Shown here: positions 596 to 49,535 of the stretch, piece after piece
Layout: each line of letters opens with the position of its first letter
Numbering within the stretch: the first letter of the stretch is position 1
Assembly: GCA_004764695.1 (NCBI GenBank)
Contig: SMSO01000007.1
Coordinates: 1,309,270 to 1,373,269 of the forward strand
Source: Schizochytrium sp. TIO01
Taxonomy: Eukaryota > Sar > Bigyra > Thraustochytrida > Thraustochytriidae
Reading direction: 5' to 3'
DNA length: 64,000 nt
The notes under the pieces: model-generated
Seen by the model: the letters and a program-made list of their open reading frames with translations, nothing else
Told to the model about the DNA's origin: nothing
Database searches by the model: none
Translations under genes and position numbers: made by a program

Positions 596-3500
596 CTAGT
601 TTCTAGCAAGGTGAAGTTCACTTTCAAGGGTAGCCACCCTTTCTTCAAGTTTTTTAATACTCTCAACAAGCAATGGAACAAGACGAGAATATTGAACTGC
701 CAACATATCTTCTTGCGACGATAATCCTGAGTGAGTTGATACCACTTCTGGCACCACGCGTTGAACATCTTGAGCGAGAAACCCAATTTCTCGCTGTGAT
801 GTCCGAAGGGAAGTTTTAGGTCTGTATGTAACTCCTTGAAGCTGTCGTACTTGCTGCAAAGCAACGTCTCCATCCAGAACAACGATGTCTTCTTTAAGTC
901 TTGCATCAGATGCTTCCGCGATACCGCCTGCTGAATGGACTCCACCAAAGCCAACATGAAGTTCGCTGATATTATGCAATACAGCTCCATTGATCACTAC
1001 ATTTCGGATGAGATTGCCATTCATCTCGATAGTATCAGACACGTTTAGACCCTGGATACAGCTCATGTGCAAGCACTGTGTCTTCTCATCAAGAACTAGA
1101 GTATTTGCATCGGTTGTAAGAGTTCCATTTGAAGTAAAAAAGGAAGCTCTCAAAAGAGATGAGCTTTCTGGGACACTCTCGTCGGTAGCTAATTTAGTCG
1201 CTCGTAGGCGGCCTGCAGCAAGCTCTACTTCAGATCCAATATGAAGGTCTTTCTCTGCAGTCAAAGAACGAACGCGCTGAAGGTCCATCCCATGCGCTTC
1301 CGGGGCATGCGGACTTTGCCATCGATTTCCATCAAAGATGAACAGGGATACCTGGCCAGGGGTCAAACGAATCATCTTTGGGTCAAGCCCACTTTCCTGG
1401 GTTTGCTTCTTTGACGTTGTTTGTACAAGGAGGTCAATATCTAACATGTTTTGTAACATGAACCAGTCGCCATCTGTTGCTTCTTCTGGAAGAGACATAG
1501 TCGATTCGTCATTATTGTTTTTGGTCGAACTATGTACGCGGATGTATGTAGTTGATTGAGCAACCTCTTCGATGGCATGCCTTCCTACTTCAAATAATCT
1601 AGGCGTAGTTGCTAGTCTTCCAGATACCTCAGCTCTACTTTTTATGCGCAAAGTACCATTGATGGTCACTTCTGTTTCACTCACGTTCATTATCTGAGCG
1701 ATCTGCATTGAATTTGTTTCTGCATCTGCAGTCACAACAAGTGAAGAATTCACAAGCTGGATTGATGATAATCCTGCCAAATTCCCTTCTATCAAAGAGA
1801 CACCTTGAGAAGGCCATACAGACTGGGATGCGTTCACGGAGAAGAATTCCGTACTTTTTAATGGCGTGGTGAAATCAACTTTGCCAAAACTAAAGCTTCC
1901 GTCTCCTAGTTGCACTTGAGTATCGATATGCGACTGCAAACGAAGTGTTTCGTTTGCAAGAATCGATACGCCATCGGTTTCATCAAAGGCAATTTTTCCA
2001 TGTGGCGAGGTCAATGAAAAAGGTTGTGGAACATTCATTCTAGTTTGGAATCCAGTTTTATCTTCCAGACTATGTAAAGATAGCGCTTTGCCAATAAATA
2101 TGCCTGTCTTGTTTGCTACAAGCTCAGACGAACCTAGGTATATAGCACCAGAGGAAAAGTTTGCAAGTCCTGTTACGTTCATAGTTCCATTAATGCTTGT
2201 GTGGTTCCGAAGCAGTGTATGTCCATCAATAGACAAAGATCGGGCAGAAGTATGACCAAGAGCTGAGAAATTACCTGCAACTAACATGTCTTGCGTCACA
2301 GTGAGATTTGCGCGAAACTCTGCGTTGCCATCGCTTGTAATTCCGTTCGACCCCACTACTAAGGTCTCGTTAATTCGCACAGGTGAAAAGAAGGTTGAGT
2401 GACCAGTGGAGTCGATATTAAGTGCTAGAGTGCCTTTCTCATTTGATATTTGAAAACCTTTTTGCACAGTCAAAGCATCAAGAATCAGGACGTTTCCTTG
2501 TATTTCCAATGCATCGCTATCATCTTCAGATTCTGCTGGGATACCAGTGATTCCGAGCGACGGACTTCCAAACAGTATACTTTCTCCAACTGTGATTGAT
2601 CGGTCTACACCCAGACCACCTTGAACAACAAGGGCCCCAGTATCCGGCGAAGTAGAGTCTGTCGGGCTAGTGAAGAGAACGTCTCCTGCAAAATTTGCTT
2701 CGGAGCCTACAGCAAGATTACCAGGTACATTGAGTTTTGACGTTTTACCGAGTAATAGATCTCCTTCGACGCCAACACTTTGTCCGAACAACGATGAACC
2801 AGATACAGCCATGCTTCCCCGAATCACTGCAGATTCAGATTTTCCGTTGAAGCTTATAAACGGGTTGTTTTGATCTCCATCAGAGGCTTCCATTTCAAAG
2901 AGTGTATAGGGGTTTTTGCCTTTAGAAAGGCGCAAACTGTGCGTCACTGATACTTCACCATTGCTAGTGCTTAATGTACCAGCCGAAAATTTGACATCGC
3001 CACCTACCTCAAGTCCTCCAAGTTCGATTGTTGCAGAGCCCTGAATGTGAACGTCGGCATCAAATTGTGCATTCTCTCCAATTTTCAAACTCCCAGAGGA
3101 CTCAAGGCCAGTCTTTGAACGTATTGTCCCATAAGCTCGTATGCTACCTGCATCAATAGTCAGATCCCCAGTCTCGATGGATAATGCCGCTGGGCCTTTC
3201 AGAGCAACATTACCTTTGGTGATCTCAAGATCTCCACCTTGTAGCGTAAGGCCATTATGCAGGGTCGATTTACCGATCGTTTCCTGATTGCCATCGATGT
3301 AAAGGGAGCCCTTTTGCTTTAAATGCAAAGAGCCTCCATTCATTACAATGTTTCCATCGCGTCCAAGCGTGAGGTTAACAGTGTCTGCAAGCTTTAATTC
3401 TTTGCTTGTCAATGACAACTTTGTGACGGGCTGGTTCATGTCAGCAGGTGAACGTAAACGAAACTCAAAATGTCCCGATACTTTATTGATTTCCACAGGA

Positions 3501-4321
3501 GAATCGACGAAGGCCATCAATGAAGCTACAGAGCTCCATTTGTTGCCATCATATGCATCAAAAGCAGCTTCACCTATGACATCATCTTTTAGAACAATCT
3601 GTAGGTTCTGAGCAGAAGGGCCTCGTGCGCGACGCAAGCGCAGCCTTGGGTATGCATTGACAGCAGGTCCAACATGCGAAACAGAAACTTGACCATCTTC
3701 CCCCACAACTAGGGTCTGCGCAGGTGCTCGGGAGCTGACTTGAAATACTGCTGATCCTTCTGCTGCGCTTACCTTTTGGTTGCTGTTCGAAAACGAGAGA
3801 CCCCAGAATTGGCGTTGCGCATTAAAATAAATGTTTGCGCATTGGTGAGATGCGGCATCTCCAAGTCGAACCGCAGCATTTGCAGAATCAGCGCCTTCAG
3901 ATCCCGCTGCGACTCGGCCTTCAAGACGTAAAGCTGAGACTCCTTCAGAGTTCGTAGCATCGATTTGATGTTCAGGATCCTTCGATCCAAGGCCCAAAAA
4001 CCCATTTTGGGTAAGGTGAAGTTTCACGTTTGCCTGATGAGGTTGTTTCTCATTATGAATCTCGAAGCGGATGTCATGCTGGTCAGGTGAATGTTTGATG
4101 ACTGCAGAGATTTTGTCTTCCTGGTTCCAGAATTGCACACCTCGAGCTTGGTTGTTCGGTGCTTTAGACCTCACATTGAACATACACTCTCCTTTTTCAT
4201 CCTCAGTGCACCATGCTTGTGTCTGCAGCGTTGCTGCGGCCCAGCAAAAAATCGTTACAGCCAAAGCCACCGCTCTTGAGAAAGGGATGACAACGACCTT
4301 GCCGACGGTTGAACGGCTCAT
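596..4321 (-). CDS. Secreted or membrane-anchored fibre-like protein with C-terminal peptidase S74 domain
   Basis: A 1241-residue single frame. The ATG at 4321 is chosen because the frame upstream offers only a TTG. A hydrophobic stretch at about residues 10-37 looks like a signal peptide or signal anchor. The body (about 50-1130) is rich in Gly, Ser, Asn and short beta-like repeats, has many N-glycosylation sequons, and reads like a beta-helical trimeric fibre. The last 104 residues match the intramolecular chaperone of endosialidase (S74) family: SDARLK, then EIGFLAQDV, VVPEVV, a YSRLVPLLVESIKKLE helix and a coiled-coil end. In that family a Ser-Lys dyad five residues apart cuts just before the Ser. 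Here these are Ser1138 and Lys1143 (Ser codon at 908-910), so self-cleavage after Ala1137 is expected. The family occurs in phage tail spikes and in eukaryotic MYRF. The substrate or partner of this protein is unknown. Confidence 0.82.
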   Translation of the reverse strand: MSRSTVGKVVVIPFSRAVALAVTIFCWAAATLQTQAWCTEDEKGECMFNVRSKAPNNQARGVQFWNQEDKISAVIKHSPDQHDIRFEIHNEKQPHQANVKLHLTQNGFLGLGSKDPEHQIDATNSEGVSALRLEGRVAAGSEGADSANAAVRLGDAASHQCANIYFNAQRQFWGLSFSNSNQKVSAAEGSAVFQVSSRAPAQTLVVGEDGQVSVSHVGPAVNAYPRLRLRRARGPSAQNLQIVLKDDVIGEAAFDAYDGNKWSSVASLMAFVDSPVEINKVSGHFEFRLRSPADMNQPVTKLSLTSKELKLADTVNLTLGRDGNIVMNGGSLHLKQKGSLYIDGNQETIGKSTLHNGLTLQGGDLEITKGNVALKGPAALSIETGDLTIDAGSIRAYGTIRSKTGLESSGSLKIGENAQFDADVHIQGSATIELGGLEVGGDVKFSAGTLSTSNGEVSVTHSLRLSKGKNPYTLFEMEASDGDQNNPFISFNGKSESAVIRGSMAVSGSSLFGQSVGVEGDLLLGKTSKLNVPGNLAVGSEANFAGDVLFTSPTDSTSPDTGALVVQGGLGVDRSITVGESILFGSPSLGITGIPAESEDDSDALEIQGNVLILDALTVQKGFQISNEKGTLALNIDSTGHSTFFSPVRINETLVVGSNGITSDGNAEFRANLTVTQDMLVAGNFSALGHTSARSLSIDGHTLLRNHTSINGTMNVTGLANFSSGAIYLGSSELVANKTGIFIGKALSLHSLEDKTGFQTRMNVPQPFSLTSPHGKIAFDETDGVSILANETLRLQSHIDTQVQLGDGSFSFGKVDFTTPLKSTEFFSVNASQSVWPSQGVSLIEGNLAGLSSIQLVNSSLVVTADAETNSMQIAQIMNVSETEVTINGTLRIKSRAEVSGRLATTPRLFEVGRHAIEEVAQSTTYIRVHSSTKNNNDESTMSLPEEATDGDWFMLQNMLDIDLLVQTTSKKQTQESGLDPKMIRLTPGQVSLFIFDGNRWQSPHAPEAHGMDLQRVRSLTAEKDLHIGSEVELAAGRLRATKLATDESVPESSSLLRASFFTSNGTLTTDANTLVLDEKTQCLHMSCIQGLNVSDTIEMNGNLIRNVVINGAVLHNISELHVGFGGVHSAGGIAEASDARLKEDIVVLDGDVALQQVRQLQGVTYRPKTSLRTSQREIGFLAQDVQRVVPEVVSTHSGLSSQEDMLAVQYSRLVPLLVESIKKLEERVATLESELHLARN

Positions 4322-5069
4322 TGTGCGCCGACCAAGCTTTCTTCCCCTCGAGTCCAATTCGAGGACGACAGCTCGCCAGGCTGAAGGCAGTGTGATCGAG
4401 GCCTAGCGCGAATGAAGAGAAATGATCCTAATACAGCCTATGGGACTTTGGCAGTGCAGCCGAATTGAGTTTGCTCGAGTGAGGCCCAAGAACTCTGTTA
4501 CGTCGCACATCAAAACAGAAAGAAAACGTTATTACCTATAATAGAACATGTTACTCATCATATCGTAGGACCATATTGTAGGACCATATTGTAGGACCAA
4601 TGTAGATAGTGTTATGTAGACTGTACTTTTGATCAAATCATCAGACATTTCATTTCCTTTGGTTGTTCGAGAGAACCAGTTTATTTCTAATCATATTTCT
4701 AATCATATGTGAGAAATGCAAGCTGCGAACCTGCTTGTAGGGCCACATCGCGTCAATGCGACAGGATATTTTCATTGAAGATACTTAATCTGTGAGACAT
4801 GAGAAACAGTGAATGCTGTGAGGGGCTGCGGAGCAGATTACTAAAAGGAGTCTATTATGACCGGATTACGAGACATAAAAATACTGGCAAGCGGGTAAAT
4901 CTGAACGTTATACGAACTTGAATATTGTTATATGTTTTGGTTTAGACGAACAAAAAATTGAAAGATAGGCGTGAAAAAGAATAATATAGGGGGCCGATCT
5001 TACGATCATTAGAAGTTGATCAATAGGACTTTATTTATAGATGGTTGAAAGACCAAAACAGGTTCTCAT
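4322..5069. other. intergenic spacer
   Basis: About 750 bp between two minus-strand genes. It should contain the promoter of the fibre gene and, near 5040, the 3' end of the prolidase gene. No coding signal is visible. A 13-bp tandem repeat lies at 4559-4597. Confidence 0.5.
4559..4597. repeat. 13-bp tandem repeat, three copies
   Basis: The unit catattgtaggac occurs three times head to tail, the first copy with one change. It lies just upstream of the fibre gene. No function is evident. Confidence 0.85.
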
Positions 5070-22908: not shown

Positions 22909-24330
22909 ATGGCCGGTGAGAATAACTTAGCATCTTCTCCTGCAGGAGGTCCTGGTGCCAAGCGCAAGAGATCAGAGTCTGGCGCTGGTTCTGGTGCTGG
23001 GAAAAACTCAAAGGGAACATCTCCTTCTGGCAGCGCTAAAAGCGGCATGAGTCCAAATGGCGTGAGCAACCGCAATGGTGAAGCTTCGAAAGCTGCCAAT
23101 GGGACTGCGATTGATTTGCCGAAGAAACGCGTCGCATACTTCTATGACGCGGAGCTTTCAGTGTATGAGCACAACAGGGGCCACAAGTTTAAGCCCTTCA
23201 GAGCGAAGTTGGCGCATGAGCTCATCGACCAGTACGGCGCATATAAGGATATGATGGATGTGTTGCGCCCTCGTTTAGTCACGCGCACTGACATGGGTCA
23301 ATATCACTCTGATGCATATCTAGAAATTCTGGCCACTGCACAGGCCACTGCGAACAAACGTTTCGGCTGGGCTCCAGAGACTGCTGCTCTCGAGGAGGAC
23401 CCCACTGCACAGCGCAAAGTTGATGAGGTCTTTAAACGCTTCAACATTGAGCTTGATCCTGAAAAGTCCTCAAATGCTGTCTTTCCTGGCGTTCTTGACT
23501 ACTGCCGCCTTTACACAAGTGGTTCAATGGGCTGTGCTTTGCGGCTCACCACGGATGCCGCCGACGTTGCCATCAACTGGTACGGAGGCATGAACCACGC
23601 TCGTGGCTCCCGCGCCCAGGCTGGCTGCTACGTAAACGATTCTGTCCTCGCTACTCTGGAGCTGCTGAAACGCTTCAAGCGGGTCATGTACATCAACTTG
23701 AGTGGCGTTCATGCAGACGCTGTCGAAGAGGCCTTTTACACAACCAACCGCGTAATGACGGTCTCTTTCCACCTTGACGCGAACCACTATCCTCGTGAGT
23801 GGCCGGGAACTGGTTTGATTGAGGATGTTGGGGCCGAAGAAGGCGAAGGTTATGCTGTCAATGTGCCTATGGATCCTGGCATGACTGATGGGATGTTGGT
23901 TTCTACCTTCACAGAGGTCATCTCCAAGGCCATGTCTGTGTATGAACCAGAAGCTATTGTTATGCAGTGCGGAGGCGGTCTTTTATCTACGGAGCGTGGT
24001 GGCGACTTTAACATCACAGAAAAGGGCTATGCGGAATGTGTTCGCCTGGTTCGTGATGCTGATCTTCCGCTGCTCATGTTGGGTGGCAACGGTTCGAATA
24101 TGGCACGCACTGCTCGCATGTGGGCCTACGTGACCATGGTTTTGCTCGGTAAGGAATCACTTCTCAAGGACAATGTTATTCCAGAGCAGGTTCCGAGCAG
24201 GTACTATTTTGAGCCCCTCTTCGAGGTTTATGGTCCTGAGGTGAACATGCCGAACCTCAATTCAGTTGAGCAGAACACTCTTACCAGGAAAAAGGTTGCC
24301 TCCAATCTCAATCGTTTGTTGATCAAATAA
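22909..24330 (+). CDS. Class I histone deacetylase homologue lacking catalytic residues (pseudoenzyme)
   Basis: 473 residues from the ATG at 22909. A basic Ser/Gly-rich N-terminus with a KRKR motif (likely nuclear) precedes the HDAC fold at about 74-440. The fold is well kept: GHKFKPFRAKL, YHSDAYLEIL, INWYGGMNHA, VEEAFYTTNRVMTVSFH, FNITEKGYAECV, PLLMLGGNG. The catalytic machinery is not. Relative to human HDAC1, His140 is Asn229, Asp174 is Asn263, and zinc ligands Asp176, His178 and Asp264 are Ser265, Val267 and Gly357. Transition-state Tyr303 is Ser396. Only His141 (His230) and Asp181 (Asp270) remain. The frame is intact and non-catalytic motifs are conserved, so this is a maintained pseudoenzyme rather than a decayed gene. 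It may act as a scaffold or acetyl-lysine reader in a deacetylase complex. Confidence 0.93.
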   Translation: MAGENNLASSPAGGPGAKRKRSESGAGSGAGKNSKGTSPSGSAKSGMSPNGVSNRNGEASKAANGTAIDLPKKRVAYFYDAELSVYEHNRGHKFKPFRAKLAHELIDQYGAYKDMMDVLRPRLVTRTDMGQYHSDAYLEILATAQATANKRFGWAPETAALEEDPTAQRKVDEVFKRFNIELDPEKSSNAVFPGVLDYCRLYTSGSMGCALRLTTDAADVAINWYGGMNHARGSRAQAGCYVNDSVLATLELLKRFKRVMYINLSGVHADAVEEAFYTTNRVMTVSFHLDANHYPREWPGTGLIEDVGAEEGEGYAVNVPMDPGMTDGMLVSTFTEVISKAMSVYEPEAIVMQCGGGLLSTERGGDFNITEKGYAECVRLVRDADLPLLMLGGNGSNMARTARMWAYVTMVLLGKESLLKDNVIPEQVPSRYYFEPLFEVYGPEVNMPNLNSVEQNTLTRKKVASNLNRLLIK

Positions 24331-26182: not shown

Positions 26183-28075
26183 CTACTCAAGCTCTGCGTC
26201 TGCTTCGTCTTTTTCATCATTGGTTTCGTCTTCTCCGTCAGCATCGGCAGATTCATCATCGTCGTTGTCATCGAGTATTTTTTTTGCGAGATGGAGGTGG
26301 GTCTCAAGAATTTCCTTTCGGGCGATTCTATAGATCATGGCGGCGCGAAGTCGAGGTGGAATACTCGGGTCTACTTCGAGAGTGGCCAGATCTTGTTCCA
26401 AGCTTGTGCTTTGCTGCTCCAATTCGGCCTCGAGAAGGTCTACGAGGTCATCGAGTGCCGTGAGTTCTGTTTCGACCGATACAGAATCCTTTGGTAGAAT
26501 GGAATCCAGCGTCATACCAGTGTTTCTAGAGGAGAAAGGCACAAATTGGGACATGGAAGAATCCGGATTTTGGCTTATGGGGTCTCGAACTCTTGTCTGC
26601 AATGCATGAAATTCTTCAGATGTGAGCCACGAGAACCGCAGAAAAGCAAGCAATTCTGGATGTACTTGCGGCGTTTTAGATGTCGATTTGCAGAAAGGCT
26701 CGAGGCGAAAAGACCGGAAGCGTGTCATACCGAGAGAACGCAGAAAATCGCTTTTGGCATCATATTCGGGGACATCGGGCTCCATGCGTACGTGAATTTT
26801 GTAAGAGTCCCACTCATTGTTTTCGAGACAAAATCCATACTCTAGCAAAAGGAAACTGTTTGACCTCCGTCCGTAGCTATTGAAAGCTTCCTCACCAGCA
26901 CCGTAACGATTTGAGCCGCTAGGGAATAATCTAAAACATGCCTCCTGGCACTGCAGAGAATCGTTGTTCAACGCGCAAACCTCTTCCTTAAGTTCCATTG
27001 ACGCTAATCCTGCGGAGATAGAATTCTCCACTGCTGGGTGAGCGGAAGTCTTACAGGTGCTATTGCTTCCAGCGGTCTCCTCTTCCTGACCCACCTTGGT
27101 TTTCAAGTTAGGTGTTTGCTCAGCCTCGCGAGCTTGACTTCTCTCTTCGCATCCATCATTTTGGGCATCGCCTTTAACTGAGTTCTGATGTTGACTGGGC
27201 TCGTGGTCTTTGCTAATAGTTTGTGTAGCACTAGATATACTCTCAAGTTTGTTTTTCTTCTCTTTGAGCGTTGCGGCATAAATGGACGGCCGAGATGTAA
27301 GATCATACTTAACAGGAACATTGGCGTGGTTCAAACAGTCCGCAAATGGAACCATTGCGGTCCATGGCAAGCGACGACCGAATGCTCGCGATTGAATAAC
27401 CATCCATGCCCACTTGAATAACTCAAGAGAGTAGTCTCCGAGGTTCAGTCCAGCCGTCTCGAAAGCCTCTGCAGCCTGCAAATATAACCGTTCTAAGGAA
27501 GCCGGACGGCGTCGAGCCTCGCCAACAATTTCGCGATCTTGCAGCTCCAATTGTTCTTGATGAGACCATTCACCAATGCCACCTGGCACAGGCAAAATTT
27601 GCAAATAAGGGTGCCAAAATGAGTCTTTGCCGCGAAGTCGTTCATGCATAAGGAAGACAGCAATAACAAGGTCATCGTCCGCAGTGAAAAAGTGCCATTT
27701 GGCCTGATATACAGGCTGCAAAGCTGCACATCCGAAGCAAACAGAAGGGTAAATCATAAGGCTCTGAGGAATCTCCAACATAGGTTCGTTAGGTTCAATG
27801 TCAACCACAGCGACTGCTCCACGCACACCCGAAATTGTTGCTCGCGAGGGCCAGTCGAGTTTGTCAATCTGAGCTCCATTTTCACGAAGCCAAGCGAGAA
27901 ACTCTTCCTCATGAGCAGAAGTCACGACCTCCGTGCCATCATCGCAGTCAGCGACAGCAACCTCATTTGGGTTGGCGCCGACATTTCCATGAACTTCAAC
28001 CTTAGTCGAGGCGACGGCGTCTAAGGTCGCCATGGAAGCCGTCGGCGCCGAGGATTGCGCCACACAGAACTCCAT
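26183..28075 (-). CDS. SET-domain lysine/histidine methyltransferase, SETD3/Rubisco-LSMT type
   Basis: 630 residues from the ATG at 28075; a TTG lies five codons upstream, and an ATG at 28033 in a strong context is an alternative start. The split SET domain runs from about residue 70 to 445. Visible elements are GVRGAVAVVDIEPNEPMLEIP (start of SET), WAWMVIQSRAF, PFADCLNHA (the NHxx SAM-binding motif, here NHA) and RRSNSFLLLEYGFCL. A poorly conserved 110-residue acidic insert (about 285-395) separates the SET halves and is longer than usual. The C-terminal substrate-binding region is helical and ends in an Asp/Glu-rich tail. Family members methylate actin His73, Rubisco or other non-histone proteins; the substrate cannot be read from the sequence. 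Confidence 0.88.
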   Translation of the reverse strand: MEFCVAQSSAPTASMATLDAVASTKVEVHGNVGANPNEVAVADCDDGTEVVTSAHEEEFLAWLRENGAQIDKLDWPSRATISGVRGAVAVVDIEPNEPMLEIPQSLMIYPSVCFGCAALQPVYQAKWHFFTADDDLVIAVFLMHERLRGKDSFWHPYLQILPVPGGIGEWSHQEQLELQDREIVGEARRRPASLERLYLQAAEAFETAGLNLGDYSLELFKWAWMVIQSRAFGRRLPWTAMVPFADCLNHANVPVKYDLTSRPSIYAATLKEKKNKLESISSATQTISKDHEPSQHQNSVKGDAQNDGCEERSQAREAEQTPNLKTKVGQEEETAGSNSTCKTSAHPAVENSISAGLASMELKEEVCALNNDSLQCQEACFRLFPSGSNRYGAGEEAFNSYGRRSNSFLLLEYGFCLENNEWDSYKIHVRMEPDVPEYDAKSDFLRSLGMTRFRSFRLEPFCKSTSKTPQVHPELLAFLRFSWLTSEEFHALQTRVRDPISQNPDSSMSQFVPFSSRNTGMTLDSILPKDSVSVETELTALDDLVDLLEAELEQQSTSLEQDLATLEVDPSIPPRLRAAMIYRIARKEILETHLHLAKKILDDNDDDESADADGEDETNDEKDEADAELE

Positions 28076-29727
28076 CTGTGCACCAAACAATCGCGGAGCG
28101 CTGCGTTCGGTCTTGAGAAGCCTTGCTACGTTGTTTTCTGTTCTCCTTAGCGTGATCCCTATCCGTGCCTGCCAAGGCGCTGGTTGATCGTGTTATGAAC
28201 TCTACGTTTTGCAGCTTGCGCACCTTGCAAGGCTTTAAGGAGCTCTTTGTGCAATATGGGGGTAGACCAACCTTTGTGAGGACTATCAAAATATGTAACA
28301 CAATTCGCGAGATGTACCACTGGCGAAGCTGAATGCCTGCAAGAATCAAGCAACCCGCTTTGGGGGATGGGCTAGAGATTGGTTCTTGTTTCAAGCACCA
28401 CAGATTGGTTGGACTTGCTCGAGGTCTGATAGAATTTGGCGAGAAAGCGCAGAGAAATGTTACTGTTACAATTAGGTCAGGTGTGCTTGGTACAAGAAAC
28501 AAGCGACGCAAGCAAGCAAAGCGAGCAAACAAGCAAGCAAAGTAAGCAGCATCGTCCTGGCTGAACGAATGCATCAAAGTTTGTAGCTTTCCATGGTTCC
28601 GCAAGAAACCAAACTTAGCTTCTGCTGACGACTCATACTTATGAAATTAGCAATTCGCATTGATCGATTGATTGATTGATTGATTGATTCTGTCTCAAGA
28701 TATCGTCCCTAAACCGTTCCTGCAATATGGGCTAATGGACCATTTACTTCAAAGGCTGCTTTGGGGCAACAGGAGTTGTGTGATGGCGTTCCAGCCCAAT
28801 TGTCGTTTCCCTTCTTCCCAGGCTTAGTCCTTTCTCAGGCTGTGCATGTGCATCTCGAGAACTGCCTTCAAGTTCTTCAAAATCAACCAATCACCGATTC
28901 AATCACTCAATCATCAATCGCAATTTCTTACATACATCACATCACTTAAGCACATTAAATAAACGTTTTAAATTCTCTAATCCACAGCAAAAAGAGACGG
29001 ATCAAAGAGCAAAGAGTCCGCATTTAAAACTAAAGGTTATGGTCGCCTCCTAACCTAAACTGTATAATTATGGCCGTACAAGCTGTTGCACTACAGTAGT
29101 AGTATTGTACAGTAAGCGTCTACCTACTGGAAACACTGAGGAGAGTATTTTCATTTATCACCTATTTATATGATACATGCTTTTTTTCTTTTCTTTTAAT
29201 TTAAAAAAAAAAGCAATTAAAAGAAACGTGCTATCATTCGCACATATGTGATATGTATTTTTCTACTAAAGTTAAAAAAGGTTAAAAAGAAAAGAAAAAA
29301 AGAAAAACAGAATTAAGAAATATAGTGCGTATAGATTTTATTTTTCGTAAACGCGAACACATAAGATTAGTATAAACGAAGTCGTATGTGCTTTTAGGCG
29401 CATAAAGAACAGAACACTTTAAAATCATCTTTTCAAGGTCTGTTGGTCGTACGTAATAAATGATGGAGGACACTCAAAAGAGAAAGAAAAAGAAAAAATC
29501 GAAAAGAAAAAACGAAAAGAAAGGAAAGATAGATCGAAGAACGTAAGTTTCCTATTCGAGAGGTCGCAGAGCCAAAACAGCAGCAATTACATACAGCGCG
29601 CAGCTCGCCACTTCGCAGAGTCTGCATTGCTAAAGGGCCTCCTGACGCGTGTGGATTCAGGTGGGTGCGTGCTTCCTGCTCTATTCTCGCACTCTGTGTC
29701 GTCTATTCTCCTCCGCGGTAACGTGGA
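28076..29727. other. intergenic region between divergent genes
   Basis: About 1.65 kb. It contains CAAG-type repeats at 28497-28543, a (TGAT)n tract at 28665-28689, an A/T palindrome near 29188-29220 and purine runs at 29280-29310 and 29470-29530. A minus-strand frame at 28002-28604 overlaps the SET start out of frame and is not called. A short basic frame from the ATG at 29460 ends in a perfect donor (AAC|GTAAGT at about 29541), which may mark a 5' leader intron of the Kelch gene. Confidence 0.4.
28665..28689. repeat. (TGAT)n microsatellite
   Basis: Six tandem copies of a TGAT-type tetranucleotide in the divergent intergenic region. Confidence 0.85.
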
Positions 29728-35528: not shown

Positions 35529-36136
35529 TTAGAATCTGTAAAAACCTGTAAAAACCTGTAAGAATCTCGAAATTTGTAGAAGCCCTTGAAGTAAACCTAT
35601 GAACCTGCTACCATCGCGGCGTGCTCTCTCTAGTAGGTGGCTGGATAATTTGCGGAAAGGTAGCAGACCTCCAGGAAACTGACACCCCCTGTGTACTTGT
35701 AGTGCACAGCACGTATGAGAGGCAGCGGGGGGATCATTGAGAGAACTAGAGCACGAGAGTCGATCTGGAGCTGGCTGCTGGTATTAGGAGAAAGCAGGCA
35801 CGCTCAACGTAGGGACCACGTATATATGTACCCGGAATTTAACTTTGGGAAAGATCGCTCCTGAGCCGGTGATTCGGTAAACTGTGAATTAGCCTCGATC
35901 ACCATCGGACTGAATTCTCTGGAAGAAAGCTGTCGCAGAGTGTGTGACTGAGTGGCTGATTGGTTGATTTAGCGGTTAATTGATGACCTGAGCAATAGAA
36001 GTAGTGAAAACCTGAATCAGGCAAACCTGGAACTGGTGCAGACTAATCAGGGCAAAGGTAACCTTGGAAAGAGAGGTATTGGTCGCGTTGTTGCATAATC
36101 CAGTACTTGTTCGTAGACATCTAAAGGTTTGCAAAC

Positions 36137-37531
36137 ATGCTGAACGATGGCGCGGATCGCGCGATGCTGCGGAACTCTGGCAGTGCAGATGAGGATGACC
36201 TCGAATCGCGCAACTATGGCGCTGGCGACGTAAGTTGTGAGAAAAACGCACTGGGAGGTGATGCAGGACTCGAAAATAGGGCGTCAACCTTCGACGCCAC
36301 CATGGAGGATGGTGATTTGACAGAGACGCCTCGCGACATCTACAAGGTTGGTCCGAATGAAACAGGGGCAACTGTTCAAGCTGCGCCTCCAATCCACCTA
36401 CACAAGCCTTCTGTCACAGACTGGGTCAAAATCATCCTAATGAGCGCCGTGATGGGTATTGTTTTTGGAATCGCATTTTCGCGCTCGCGTGTTTTTGAGC
36501 CAATGGTCATTCGAGGGCAATTCATTTTTGCAAATTTTATCATGCTCAAAATGTTCCTCGCTGCCGTAGGTACTTCCGCTCTTTGCTTCCTCATTATCTC
36601 TTTGACTCCATTTAAAGCACGTCTTGAGCGAACACGGCGCAAGCGCGTTACTTCTCGTGGAATTCGCACTACAATCCTTGGAGCCTTCATTCTTGGTATT
36701 GGGTTGGCCATTTCTGCCGCTTGCCCCGGAATGGTGCTGGCGCAGGTTGGAGCAGGCACGAGCCACAGTGGCTACACTCTTCTGGGCGGTATCCTTGGAG
36801 CCCTTCTTTTCCAATGGACAGACCCAATTATCAAACCAATCACCGACAAGTACGGCGGTGGCAAGATGTCTGAGGAATATCTGGACACTTATATTGGTAT
36901 GAATTCATCTGTGGCGTTTGCAGGGCTCTTTATCATGATGACTGCTGCTGTCGTTCTCTTTGAAGTCTTTCTCCCATGGCAAAATGACCTGACTTTCCCA
37001 CTGGCTGATACTTGCAGCACAGATAACGTCAACGATTGCTATGCCTGGCCCCCGTCTCTGGGAGGTGTTCTGATTGGTCTTTTGCAACTGCCTGTTTTTT
37101 GGGTGATGGGTGGTGTCCTCGGGTCATCCACAAGCTATGTTGCAGTCTGTAGTGCATGGTGGTTCTTCCTGCCCAAGGACTACAGACATCTTTTCGAATA
37201 CGCAAAGAGGTTTGCGCACCCCCAGATTGATACTCATTGGCAGCTTATCTTCGTTGTTTTTTCTATTCTTGGTGCTCTTATCTCAGAATCTGCGTCTGGC
37301 ATGTTAGGAAAAGTACATGGAGTAAGCATTGGATATTCTCTGGTTGGTGGAATTCTGCTCGTCTTTGGTGCCCGCATGGCGGGTGGCTGTACTAGTGGAC
37401 ACGGTGTTTCCGGAATGGCACTCCTCTCGATGCATAGCATTGCGGCTACTGCATCAATGTTTGCAGGAGGCATTGCAACCGGATTCATTATTCAGTATGG
37501 TATCGATGACAGCTTTTACACGGGTGCTTGA
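36137..37531 (+). CDS. YeeE/YedE-family transporter (thiosulfate/sulphur uptake type), paralogue A
   Basis: 464 residues from the ATG at 36137. A hydrophilic acidic N-terminus (about 95 residues) precedes about nine or more membrane helices. Family signatures are GIGLAISAACPGMVLAQVGAG near 195-215 and ARMAGGCTSGHGVSGMALLS near 415-435. Both carry the Gly-rich, Cys-containing loops that in bacterial TsuA bind thiosulfate in the pore. The internal two-fold repeat typical of the family is visible. Eukaryotic copies are uncommon. It most resembles the protein at 44549-45886 (shared FEPMV.RGQ and IMLKMF segments), so the pair arose by duplication. The substrate is inferred from the family; plasma membrane or organelle location is not resolved. 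Confidence 0.9.
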   Translation: MLNDGADRAMLRNSGSADEDDLESRNYGAGDVSCEKNALGGDAGLENRASTFDATMEDGDLTETPRDIYKVGPNETGATVQAAPPIHLHKPSVTDWVKIILMSAVMGIVFGIAFSRSRVFEPMVIRGQFIFANFIMLKMFLAAVGTSALCFLIISLTPFKARLERTRRKRVTSRGIRTTILGAFILGIGLAISAACPGMVLAQVGAGTSHSGYTLLGGILGALLFQWTDPIIKPITDKYGGGKMSEEYLDTYIGMNSSVAFAGLFIMMTAAVVLFEVFLPWQNDLTFPLADTCSTDNVNDCYAWPPSLGGVLIGLLQLPVFWVMGGVLGSSTSYVAVCSAWWFFLPKDYRHLFEYAKRFAHPQIDTHWQLIFVVFSILGALISESASGMLGKVHGVSIGYSLVGGILLVFGARMAGGCTSGHGVSGMALLSMHSIAATASMFAGGIATGFIIQYGIDDSFYTGA

Positions 37532-43965: not shown

Positions 43966-44548
43966 GTTGTTTGTTTATACGACGTGCAATTCAACAGGGT
44001 ACTTAGCTACGTGGCCCAGGTTGATATAGAAAAAGCCTGGGTCTGGAGAAGTTTGTTCTTCAACTGACTGTGCTTTTTGGTTGATTGAATACGTGCATGT
44101 GCAAGTGCCGTGTAGCAGTAGCTATCACAGAGATAAGGTCCATCGCAGCAGCGAAGACATCGTGACAAAAGAACAGCAGAGCAGTACTACCTACAGGTAG
44201 GAAGGTAGGTAGCAACCAGGTAATGCGGTAAGCACGTAAAACACTTTCGTTTAGAGAATTAGAATTACACTAAGTTTGGAGGGTACTCGTGGTGAAGGGC
44301 TCAGCAAAACTCCATCTCCGATAAGGGTCAGGAAGTTGGACGAGCTTCAAGAGGAGTCGTGGCGGCGTGCTTGACCGTTTGAGAGGGAAGGGTGAAAACA
44401 AGCAAAGCTTGTTTGCAGCGAGGAAAGTCTCTAAGGACCTGTAGTGACGGTGAAGAAGACCTGTTGACAGCGGAGGGATTCTGTCTTTGTAAGACCTTAC
44501 GGAAGAGGCAGAGGATCGAGAAGTACTTAAACAAGCATAATTGCAAGA
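43966..44548. other. upstream region of YeeE/YedE paralogue B
   Basis: Contains an inverted and repeated ACCTAC/GTAGGT cluster at about 44188-44213, some 340 bp before the ATG. It is otherwise unremarkable. Confidence 0.4.
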
Positions 44549-45886
44549 ATGAAGAACCCTTTCAAATCCACAAGGACGCACTCCGAGACTGGGATCACGG
44601 TGCGGTCGTCCATGGACGACACAGAATCGACGGATGCCTTTGATGAAACGAACGTGTCTGGCAAAGTTGCTGATCAGCAACTCAGTGTCAAGGTTGATCC
44701 CTTCAGCGGGAATGAGGTGAAGGAGAGTACCAACCGCGTTCAATGTGCGTCATTTACAGAATGGGCCAAAGTCTTTGCCATGGCAGCGGTCATGGGCCTG
44801 ACTTTTGGCGCTGCCTTTTCCAAAGCTCGTGTCTTCGAGCCAATGGTTGTGCGTGGACAGCTTCTCTTCAAGAGTTTTATCATGCTCAAGATGTTCATGA
44901 GCGCCGTGGGCACATCAACACTGTGCTTTGTCATTATCAACAAAACTAGCGTCAAACCACGTTTCAAGGAGTCTAGAGAAAAACGTTGCACAAGCCGTGG
45001 GCTCGGTACAACAGTTATTGGAGCCTTTATTCTAGGAATCGGGCTTGCTCTGGCTGGCGCTTGTCCTAGCATGGTACCCTCTCAGGTTGGCGCTGCCACT
45101 ACTCATTCTGGGTACACCATCATTGGCGCAATAGTTGGTGCTTTGTTCTTTGAGTTCACAGACCCCATCATCAAACCCGTCATGAATCGTTTCTGTGGAC
45201 CCAAGCTTAAGCTGGAGTACCTTGATCAGTTTTTGGGTATAAGCTATACCATTTGTGGTCTCATGCTTGTATGTTGCGCTTTTGCAGCAGCTGTGCTCTT
45301 CGAAGTCTTCTTTCCTTGGGAAGAAGAACTCTACCGGCCTCTTGAGGATGACTGCTCATTGAAACACTTTTGGAACTGCTATGCTTGGCCCCCTGCTATC
45401 GCCGGAGTCATGGTTGGAATTCTGCAAATTCCAGTCTTTCTTCTTATGAGCAACACACTCGGATCCTCAACAGCGTATGTGGCAGTCTGCAGTGCATGGG
45501 TGTACTTGCTGCCTGCCAATTGGCGTCGGCCGTTTGACTATGCTCGCCGTTTTGCTTTCCCAACACCGGACACGCATTGGCAGCTGTTCTTCGTTCTCTT
45601 TGCAATGTTGGGCTGCTTTTTGACTGAGCTACGACACGGTATGCTAGGCACAGCAGAGAGTTTGTCCATTGCATACTCGATTGTTGGAGGATTCCTGTTC
45701 ATTTTTGGTGCTCGCATGGCGGGCGGGTGCACAGCCGGCCATGGCGTCTCGGGCATGGCTCTACTTTCAATTCACAGTATTGCTGCTGTGGCAGCAATGT
45801 TTGGAGGTGGTATTGCTACTTCATACCTTATTTTTGCAGGTATCACAGAGTCTTTCTACATTGCACCAACGGGATATGTGCACTGA
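44549..45886 (+). CDS. YeeE/YedE-family transporter (thiosulfate/sulphur uptake type), paralogue B
   Basis: 445 residues from the ATG at 44549. Same plan as the protein at 36137-37531: hydrophilic N-terminus of about 70 residues, then multiple membrane helices. Signature loops are GIGLALAGACPSMVPSQVGA near 165-185 and ARMAGGCTAGHGVSGMALLS near 390-410. Both loop cysteines are kept, so transport function is likely. Differences lie mainly in the N-terminus and in loop residues (CPSMVPS here, CPGMVLA in A), which may change affinity or substrate. Same strand as A but 7 kb away, so this is a dispersed tandem duplicate with its own promoter. Confidence 0.9.
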   Translation: MKNPFKSTRTHSETGITVRSSMDDTESTDAFDETNVSGKVADQQLSVKVDPFSGNEVKESTNRVQCASFTEWAKVFAMAAVMGLTFGAAFSKARVFEPMVVRGQLLFKSFIMLKMFMSAVGTSTLCFVIINKTSVKPRFKESREKRCTSRGLGTTVIGAFILGIGLALAGACPSMVPSQVGAATTHSGYTIIGAIVGALFFEFTDPIIKPVMNRFCGPKLKLEYLDQFLGISYTICGLMLVCCAFAAAVLFEVFFPWEEELYRPLEDDCSLKHFWNCYAWPPAIAGVMVGILQIPVFLLMSNTLGSSTAYVAVCSAWVYLLPANWRRPFDYARRFAFPTPDTHWQLFFVLFAMLGCFLTELRHGMLGTAESLSIAYSIVGGFLFIFGARMAGGCTAGHGVSGMALLSIHSIAAVAAMFGGGIATSYLIFAGITESFYIAPTGYVH

Positions 45887-47527: not shown

Positions 47528-48137
47528 TTGCACGCCAGAGCATCAAATTACTGCGAAAGTTGGGACGTCTGGTTTCAAAGGAAGGGCAACATGGATATAT
47601 TGTTGTGGATGCTCTAGCCGGCCAGTTTTTTATCAACGTGGGAAGTTTTTGGCATCTATGTCATACTGAATAAACCCGTCGAGAATGCCGACCTTTGGCT
47701 TTTGCTGCACTGATAGAGCCGCGTCTTCGCTCAGCAAGGCTCCAAGCACGTGGGACCTACGTCACGAAGGCTCAACTTGGAATTAATCACCTTGAACTAC
47801 AGAACAATGGGTCCGTGAACTGCGAAGTAAAATATAAGAAAGAGAAAGATTTTTTTATTTTTTTGATGCGATAGAAGATCTCGACTGAGTGAATAGGAGT
47901 TGGTTAGCTAAAATGGTAGGAGAGGGCTCGTTTTAAAGCAGGGAAAAGATCTTTTTCCCACTTGGACGGAATGTATGTGAATGAAGATATGTAGTAAGGA
48001 CATCACAAACTGCAGCCAAACTCAGTTCGAGACTCGCAGCAAACTCGCAACTCAGCTTGGAGTTTTGGAGAGCTCGCTGCCAGTGCGGAAGAATCGTAGG
48101 AAGGAAAGGGTCAGGTCTGGAAAACCCCACTGCAACC
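47528..48137. other. upstream region of the LarA-like gene
   Basis: About 600 bp. T-rich at 47850-47868, otherwise without features. It should carry the promoter of the gene starting at 48138. Confidence 0.4.
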
Positions 48138-49535
48138 ATGTTGGCTGAAAAGGGCGGCGTGGAGGAGAACCTCTCTGTAGAGGATATGCGTAAACTGGTC
48201 TATGAGGCCCTCGACAAGCTGGAGAAGATCAAGAAGCGCGAAAAGGTGCTCATTCTGCCGCCAGATGCCACCAGGTATACCTCGCGTGCTGGTGAGCTGA
48301 CGCAAATTGTATATGACTACTATGGAGACAAAATCACTGATATCATGCCGGCGCTCGGAACGCACAAGCCCATGACGGACGAGCAAATTGAGTCCATGTT
48401 TGGCTCCAAGATCCCGCGGTCGCTCTACCGTGTGCATGATTGGCGCAATGATGTGGTCACCATTGGTGAGGCCCCCCAGGAGCTTGTTGAGCAGGCAAGC
48501 GAGGGTAAGATCAAGGAAAAGTGGCCTGCTCAGCTCAACAAGCTAGTTTGGGAGGGTGGTCACGATTTGATTCTTTCCATCGGCCAAGTTGTACCACATG
48601 AGGTCATGGGTTTTGCAAATTATAACAAGAACCTTTTCGTTGGTGTTGGTGGCCCGGAGGCAATCAACTTGAGCCATTTCATCGGCGCTGTCTATGGTCT
48701 GGAGCGTATGATGGGCCATGCCGACAACCCTCTGCGCAAGGTTCTCGACTACGCCACCGAGCACTTTCTTAAGGGCAAGCTTCCCGTAGTATATCTCCAG
48801 ACTGTTGTGGCGAACGATGACGGAAAGCTGGCCACCCGCGGTCTCTACATTAGTGAAGATCGCGACTGCTTTGAGAAGGCCGCAGCGCTCTCTCTGCGTT
48901 CCAACTTTGTCCTCGTAGACAAACCCCTGAAAAAAGTTGTTGCCTATCTCGACCCCAAGTTCACTACCACATGGCTGGGTGGCAAGGCAATCTATCGTAC
49001 GCGCATGGCCATGGCTGATGGAGGTGAGCTCATTATTCTTGCTCCAGGTGTTGATGCATTTGGCGAAGACGATGAAATCGACAAGCTTATTCGTGACTAT
49101 GGCTACCGTACTACTCCTGAGATCATGAAGTATCTTGAAACAAGCCGCAGCCTGATGAAGAATCTAAGCGCGGCTGCCCACTTGATTCACGCGTCACCGG
49201 AGAACCGTTTCACAATCACTCATTGTCCTGGTCACCTCACACGAGAGGAGATTGAAGGCGTTGGCTACCAATATGGTGATGTTCACGAAATGATGAAGAA
49301 ATACGATATCAATAAGCTCAAGGACGGCTACAACATGGTTGATGGCGAAGAGATTTACTTTGTTAGCAAACCTGCGCTTGGCCTTTGGGGTGTCAAAGAG
49401 CGTTTCACTCACCTGACAGACGGTGCAGCGGCTGAGGACGAGGCCAACGTTGCTGCTGCAGCATCTTCTAGCACGCCAGATGACGAGGAAGAAACCTCAA
49501 CAGCGAAGAAGCAAAAGGTCGATGATGCTGAGTGA
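48138..49535 (+). CDS. LarA-like nickel-pincer lactate racemase family protein (DUF2088)
   Basis: 465 residues. The ATG at 48138 (CAACCATG) is used; the frame extends upstream only to a TTG. Key residues of Lactobacillus LarA have counterparts here: the DxTR loop (Asp43, Arg46), His76 in GTHKP, His154, Lys164 (pincer attachment) and His180 (nickel ligand). The spacing His154-Lys164-His180 (10 and 16 residues) equals that of LarA 174-184-200. LarA enzymes racemise or epimerise alpha-hydroxy acids with a nickel-pincer nucleotide made by LarB, LarC and LarE; none of those is in this window. The C-terminus adds an acidic/Ala tail (about 435-465) with a basic KKQK patch. Substrate unknown. Probably of bacterial origin. 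Confidence 0.9.
   Translation: MLAEKGGVEENLSVEDMRKLVYEALDKLEKIKKREKVLILPPDATRYTSRAGELTQIVYDYYGDKITDIMPALGTHKPMTDEQIESMFGSKIPRSLYRVHDWRNDVVTIGEAPQELVEQASEGKIKEKWPAQLNKLVWEGGHDLILSIGQVVPHEVMGFANYNKNLFVGVGGPEAINLSHFIGAVYGLERMMGHADNPLRKVLDYATEHFLKGKLPVVYLQTVVANDDGKLATRGLYISEDRDCFEKAAALSLRSNFVLVDKPLKKVVAYLDPKFTTTWLGGKAIYRTRMAMADGGELIILAPGVDAFGEDDEIDKLIRDYGYRTTPEIMKYLETSRSLMKNLSAAAHLIHASPENRFTITHCPGHLTREEIEGVGYQYGDVHEMMKKYDINKLKDGYNMVDGEEIYFVSKPALGLWGVKERFTHLTDGAAAEDEANVAAAASSSTPDDEEETSTAKKQKVDDAE

Follow-up and report, generated by a model that had tools for sequence, protein, structure and literature searches.

Class I histone deacetylases (HDACs) act within Sin3, NuRD, CoREST and related complexes. 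The yeast Rpd3L and S. pombe SIN3L complexes hold two deacetylase copies, one of which is blocked by Rxt2; according to the authors, the reason for the blocked copy is unclear (PMC10224958, PMC10115800). An engineered dead enzyme, HDAC2-H142A, still joins complexes and lowers activity in a dominant-negative manner (PMC4719423).

Deacetylase relatives that have lost catalysis are also on record. Human HDAC10 carries a C-terminal pseudo-deacetylase domain with the HDAC fold (PMC11532494, PMC2671507), and in Arabidopsis two class I genes of the RPD3 type, HDA10 and HDA17, lack an active site (PMC2671507). The HDAC10 domain belongs to class IIb and is fused to an active domain, and the Arabidopsis genes are short fragments that miss the active-site part. 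Class IIa HDACs retain zinc and differ only in the replacement of Tyr by His. HDAC4, 5, 7 and 9 of that class are described as poor catalysts, owing to active-site change, with scaffold roles (PMC12383505, PMC4498904). The zinc ligands and the Tyr are present in all of T. cruzi HDAC1-4 (PMC8569148), and the excerpts available of an oomycete survey do not mention inactive class I members (PMC5112689).

The gene examined here encodes a stand-alone class I protein, of another class than HDAC10 and the class IIa enzymes, in which the domain is complete and it is single residues that have been exchanged. The fold and motifs are common to it and to HDAC1/2/3, Rpd3 and Clr6, and the Rpd3-type surface residues are partly kept, whereas the zinc ligands, the Tyr and the tunnel of those enzymes are all lacking. 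It is called pseudo-HDAC below. The literature search yielded nothing relevant on class I pseudo-HDACs in protists or thraustochytrids, and the open-access papers searched describe no intact stand-alone HDAC of class I in which every zinc ligand is replaced. Support for novelty is weak, because most subscription journals fell outside the search. The preliminary description of this DNA knew of no such pseudoenzyme; in the papers searched this holds for a full-length, stand-alone class I protein, but not for catalytically lost HDACs at large, as the HDAC10 domain and HDA10/HDA17 are published. A gene whose very sequence imposes inactivity would allow the structural role of class I HDACs to be told apart from their catalytic one.

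Gene, fold and descent

The gene lies on the forward strand of the window, the 64,000-nucleotide stretch of DNA that was analysed, and is laid out as follows.

22909-24330, + strand: class I pseudo-HDAC gene, single exon, 473 aa (open reading frame, PF00850, HDAC2 match, single copy)
22909-23121, + strand: N-terminal extension (residues 1-71) with much Gly, Ser, Ala and Lys; disorder is predicted from this composition
22960-22971, + strand: KRKR in the translation, residues 18-21, candidate nuclear localisation signal
23182-24141, + strand: histone deacetylase domain, residues 92-411 (Pfam PF00850)

The reading frame runs from ATG to TAA over 473 codons with zero stops or frameshifts. Residues 92-411 match the Pfam profile Hist_deacetyl (PF00850) with an E-value of 3.6e-50 over positions 1-297 of 298. 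A domain-only genome annotation would label the product a histone deacetylase. Human HDAC2 is on top of the PDB matches (E 9.1e-87, residues 72-469), and the best relatives there are human HDAC2, HDAC1, yeast RPD3 and human HDAC3 (E 9e-87 to 1e-75). The intact frame and the class I motifs across the domain, both reported in the preliminary description, are thus borne out. The identity is about 43% to HDAC2, and likewise to the paralogue L004 of the same genome. The alignment with HDAC2 has no gaps around the motifs. It contains an insertion of about 19 residues near 145-165 and four additional residues beside the F206 loop, both specific to the pseudo-HDAC, and a C-terminal tail beyond the domain is absent. 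The NCBIfam search gave no match for the pseudo-HDAC; this blank is uninformative, because the active paralogue L003 gave none either.

A structure was predicted by AlphaFold2 from the pseudo-HDAC and its own-genome paralogues, with L003 as a control from the same six sequences. The model displays the HDAC fold (pTM 0.76, mean pLDDT 69.7). Its top match in the PDB is HDAC2 (E 1.8e-35), and it superimposes on HDAC8 with an rmsd of 2.7-2.9 Å over about 343 columns. The active-site blocks of L003 have pLDDT values of 85-94, against less than 50 for the loop 231-239 of the pseudo-HDAC. The model was left out of the judgement of pocket geometry because its active-site loops lie below 50.

The genome, searched over 64 Mb in 37 contigs, contains about a dozen HDAC genes. 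The pseudo-HDAC gene is single-copy at the DNA level; neither another copy nor an allele of it turned up there. Its nearest proteins there are the class I paralogues, and L002, L003, L004 and L006 have all zinc ligands and the catalytic Tyr intact. Searches of viral and prokaryote contigs brought up no relatives, which is no surprise with a eukaryotic gene. In the tree the pseudo-HDAC falls with class I, split from the class II-type rows with a support of 100/99. By domain and tree, it is a class I HDAC (Rpd3/HDAC1-3) by descent. It has no settled place inside class I, where the AU test does not reject HDAC8 as its partner (p 0.23). A position as sister of L004, supported at 81/82 in one tree, vanished once other rows were removed and is not claimed. 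The branch is long, with 1.5-2.0 changes per site versus 0.2-0.47 in the active paralogues L002-L004.

Replacement of the active site

The following replacements were read from the alignment. HDAC2 numbering is that of PDB chain 7kbh.

23470-23472, + strand: S188 for the rim Asp (HDAC2 D100), which holds the substrate backbone
23593-23595, + strand: N229 for the first active-site His (HDAC2 H141)
23623-23625, + strand: G239 for the tunnel Phe (HDAC2 F151)
23695-23697, + strand: N263 for Asp (HDAC2 D175)
23701-23703, + strand: S265 for the zinc-ligand Asp (HDAC2 D177)
23707-23709, + strand: V267 for the zinc-ligand His (HDAC2 H179)
23977-23979, + strand: G357 for the zinc-ligand Asp (HDAC2 D265)
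24094-24096, + strand: S396 for the catalytic Tyr (HDAC2 Y304)

The three zinc ligands Asp, His and Asp are therefore S265, V267 and G357, the catalytic Tyr is S396, and the tandem His is reduced to its second member, H230, next to N229. These five replacements had been listed in the preliminary description, and they align to HDAC2 D177, H179, D265, Y304 and H141. Seven changes come in addition, at HDAC2 D100, G150, F151, D175, F206, L272 and G302; those outside the list above are G150 to A238, F206 to W298, L272 to G364 and G302 to N394. Still present are the equivalents of HDAC2 H142 (H230), D182 (D270) and G301, and H268 is also kept. A misalignment, a frameshift or zinc ligands situated elsewhere in the fold are ruled out by the PDB match and the alignments; intact ligands elsewhere, which the earlier text had considered, are not present.

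Because the zinc ligands, the catalytic Tyr and the tunnel are gone, there is hardly any doubt, judging by the residues, that the protein does not work as a zinc deacetylase. It is almost certainly catalytically dead. The earlier statement that deacetylase activity could not survive such changes would hold, in that the residues argue against any normal zinc deacetylase.

The extent of loss was compared inside and outside the pocket. The reference set consisted of 127 positions invariant in L002, L003, L004, human HDAC2, HDAC3 and yeast Rpd3; the sequences of HDAC3, HDAC8 and yeast Rpd3 were checked residue by residue against PDB entries. Known HDAC structures place fifteen of these positions in the active site. 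The pseudo-HDAC retains 3/15 active-site positions (12/15 changed) versus 78/112 elsewhere (70%, with 34/112 changed), a difference with a Fisher p of 3.1e-4. Two other divergent proteins have the reverse pattern: 13/15 active-site and 57/112 other positions are retained in the paralogue L006, and 14/15 and 68/112 in human HDAC8. The loss is thus centred on the catalytic pocket, which fits a pseudoenzyme and not general decay or chance drift.

Retention of the protein and its possible role

Codon usage of the gene is like that of other genes, with a z of 7.5 above synonymous codons drawn from the local non-coding composition. When neutral drift was simulated, the frame was open in 7% of the trials at 0.05 substitutions per site and in 0/400 at 0.2. 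The replacements of D by S, H by V and F by G need at least two base changes per codon. As several replacements are of this kind, catalysis was lost long ago. The indirect evidence of frame, codons and the rest of the domain favours retention of the protein long after catalysis went, and the gene very probably encodes a maintained pseudoenzyme. The look of a selected rather than decayed gene, noted at first sight, is sustained by the open frame, the coding-like codons and the 70% of other invariant positions kept. The long branch shows that selection constrains the protein less than it does the active paralogues, or in another way.

Partners of a Sin3-type complex are encoded in the same genome. 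The Sin3 homologue combines PF08295 (E 1.1e-29) with three PAH domains in one frame of 1591 aa, and carries the HDAC-interaction domain. Homologues of Sds3 (E 2.1e-6) and ING (E 8.7e-9) are present. Genome searches for an ELM2 (NuRD/CoREST-type) partner and for RXT2_N, both run without a positive control, gave no match.

The surface that would contact such partners is partly conserved. HDAC3 K25 and R265 have kept equivalents, and that of R301 is A. In the inositol-phosphate/basic patch, with positions as in the HDAC3-SMRT structure, 3/5 residues remain. The residues of HDAC1 that are important for partner contact have been mapped, and the Y333A/Y336A variant lost every partner (PMC12448893). 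The equivalents of HDAC1 Y48, L161 and Y333 are kept, and that of E63 is D, as in several active enzymes. Those of K126, K144 (to G) and Y166 (to R) are changed, and that of Y336 is missing through a three-residue deletion. Of the corepressor-contact residues tested, about half are lost. The SIN3B gate loop touches H179, F206, L272 and P30 (PMC10156912); all four are replaced in the pseudo-HDAC, so that any binding of Sin3 would take another form there. G233 stands in the place of Clr6 K141, a residue that bonds Sin3. As read from these residues, the surface evidence for a Sin3-type complex is mixed.

It is proposed that a duplicated deacetylase gene came to encode a protein that no longer binds zinc or catalyses and no longer has the acyl-lysine tunnel, and that this product was retained in a folded and probably nuclear form. 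This protein would bind a Sin3/Rpd3-type corepressor complex as a non-catalytic subunit or as a competitor. Its place would be an HDAC seat, such as a second silent seat like that of yeast Rpd3L, and in this way it may tune assembly or lower the activity of the complex. A dead subunit or competitor is the most economical mechanism because of the blocked Rpd3/Clr6 copy, the behaviour of HDAC2-H142A, and the presence of Sin3, Sds3 and ING. The proposed parallel with the blocked copy is that of a non-catalysing class I chain in a complex (PMC10224958, PMC10115800). There, an active polypeptide is stopped by Rxt2, whereas the pseudo-HDAC is the product of a separate gene, inactive by sequence, and its membership of a complex is putative. 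By analogy, a stand-alone class I pseudo-HDAC that works non-catalytically in a Sin3/Rpd3-type complex is the likeliest reading, held tentatively. The Sin3-type scaffold of the preliminary description fares accordingly: the Sin3, Sds3 and ING homologues speak for it, but the contact residues are only partly kept. The pseudo-HDAC could make the question of yeast's inactive deacetylase copy testable in a culturable protist. A more specific version, in which Labyrinthulomycetes evolved a dedicated dead class I subunit with a gene of its own that permanently takes up one of the places in a dimeric Sin3/Rpd3L-type complex, as an active/inactive heterodimer that replaces the regulated blocking of fungi, is considered rather unlikely.

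A somewhat more doubtful alternative to the non-catalytic subunit is that the protein was neofunctionalised outside HDAC complexes, as an arginase/deacetylase-fold protein with another partner or ligand and a remodelled pocket. The accelerated branch (1.5-2.0 against 0.2-0.47 changes per site), the unique insertion, the extra residues by the F206 loop, the loss of about half of the tested contact residues and the missing tail would all be accounted for in this way. The retention of 70% of the invariant class I positions outside the active site is less easily reconciled with it, as are the kept equivalents of HDAC1 Y48, L161 and Y333 and of HDAC3 K25 and R265.

The accelerated branch would also be expected of relaxed selection, with a pseudogene in the making that is functionless today. 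This is improbable, as the multi-base changes from D to S, H to V and F to G put the catalytic loss long ago while the frame is still open, the codons are coding-like with 70% of the other invariant positions kept, and none of 400 simulated frames stayed open at 0.2 substitutions per site.

Least probable of all is an acyl-lysine reader, or an enzyme with another metal site or chemistry in the old pocket. With H230, D270 (the Asp paired with this second His) and H268 still in place, part of the charge relay remains, but all three zinc ligands have been lost, as have the Tyr, the rim Asp, the two tunnel Phe and the tunnel Leu, no His/Cys/Asp cluster is evident for a new site, and the AlphaFold2 model is unsure of the pocket loops. 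The reader option, which the preliminary description had entertained, is disfavoured in particular because the residues that hold acyl-lysine are all replaced (D100 by S, F151 by G, F206 by W and L272 by G).

Other observations in the window and genome

The gene adjoining the pseudo-HDAC (window 26183-28090, minus strand) encodes a Rubisco LSMT substrate-binding domain (PF09273), and is likely a SET-domain lysine methyltransferase. There is no sign of a functional link between these two neighbours.

At 596-4402 (minus strand), a frame of 1268 codons ends with a C-terminal endosialidase-type intramolecular chaperone domain (PF13884, E 2.4e-14). Such domains are known from membrane-bound transcription factors of the MYRF type and from the tail proteins of phages. 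Two Sulf_transp (PF04143) genes, of a mostly bacterial transporter family, are located on the plus strand at 36125-37531 and 44531-45886. Close to this pair, a gene with a lactate-racemase N-terminal domain (Lar_N, PF09861) occupies 47985-49535 (plus strand). The three genes are possibly bacterial acquisitions.

Elsewhere in the genome, a class II-type HDAC gene (L012/L014, G000:C3:1632409-1634129, minus strand) ends C-terminally in a Sin3-like PAH domain (PF02671, E 1.2e-13) and has, by eye, ankyrin-like repeats upstream in the reading frames. A deacetylase and a corepressor-type domain are apparently combined in one gene.

The Labyrinthulomycete 18S primer LABY-A has 43 exact sites in the genome and one with a single mismatch, against zero for the reversed control, so that the source is likely a thraustochytrid-like organism. 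The 44 sites lie scattered on many different contigs, often close to the ends, and the one locus that was checked (L018 554-3018) is an 18S-5.8S-28S rRNA unit. This suggests that the rDNA is dispersed and partly subtelomeric.
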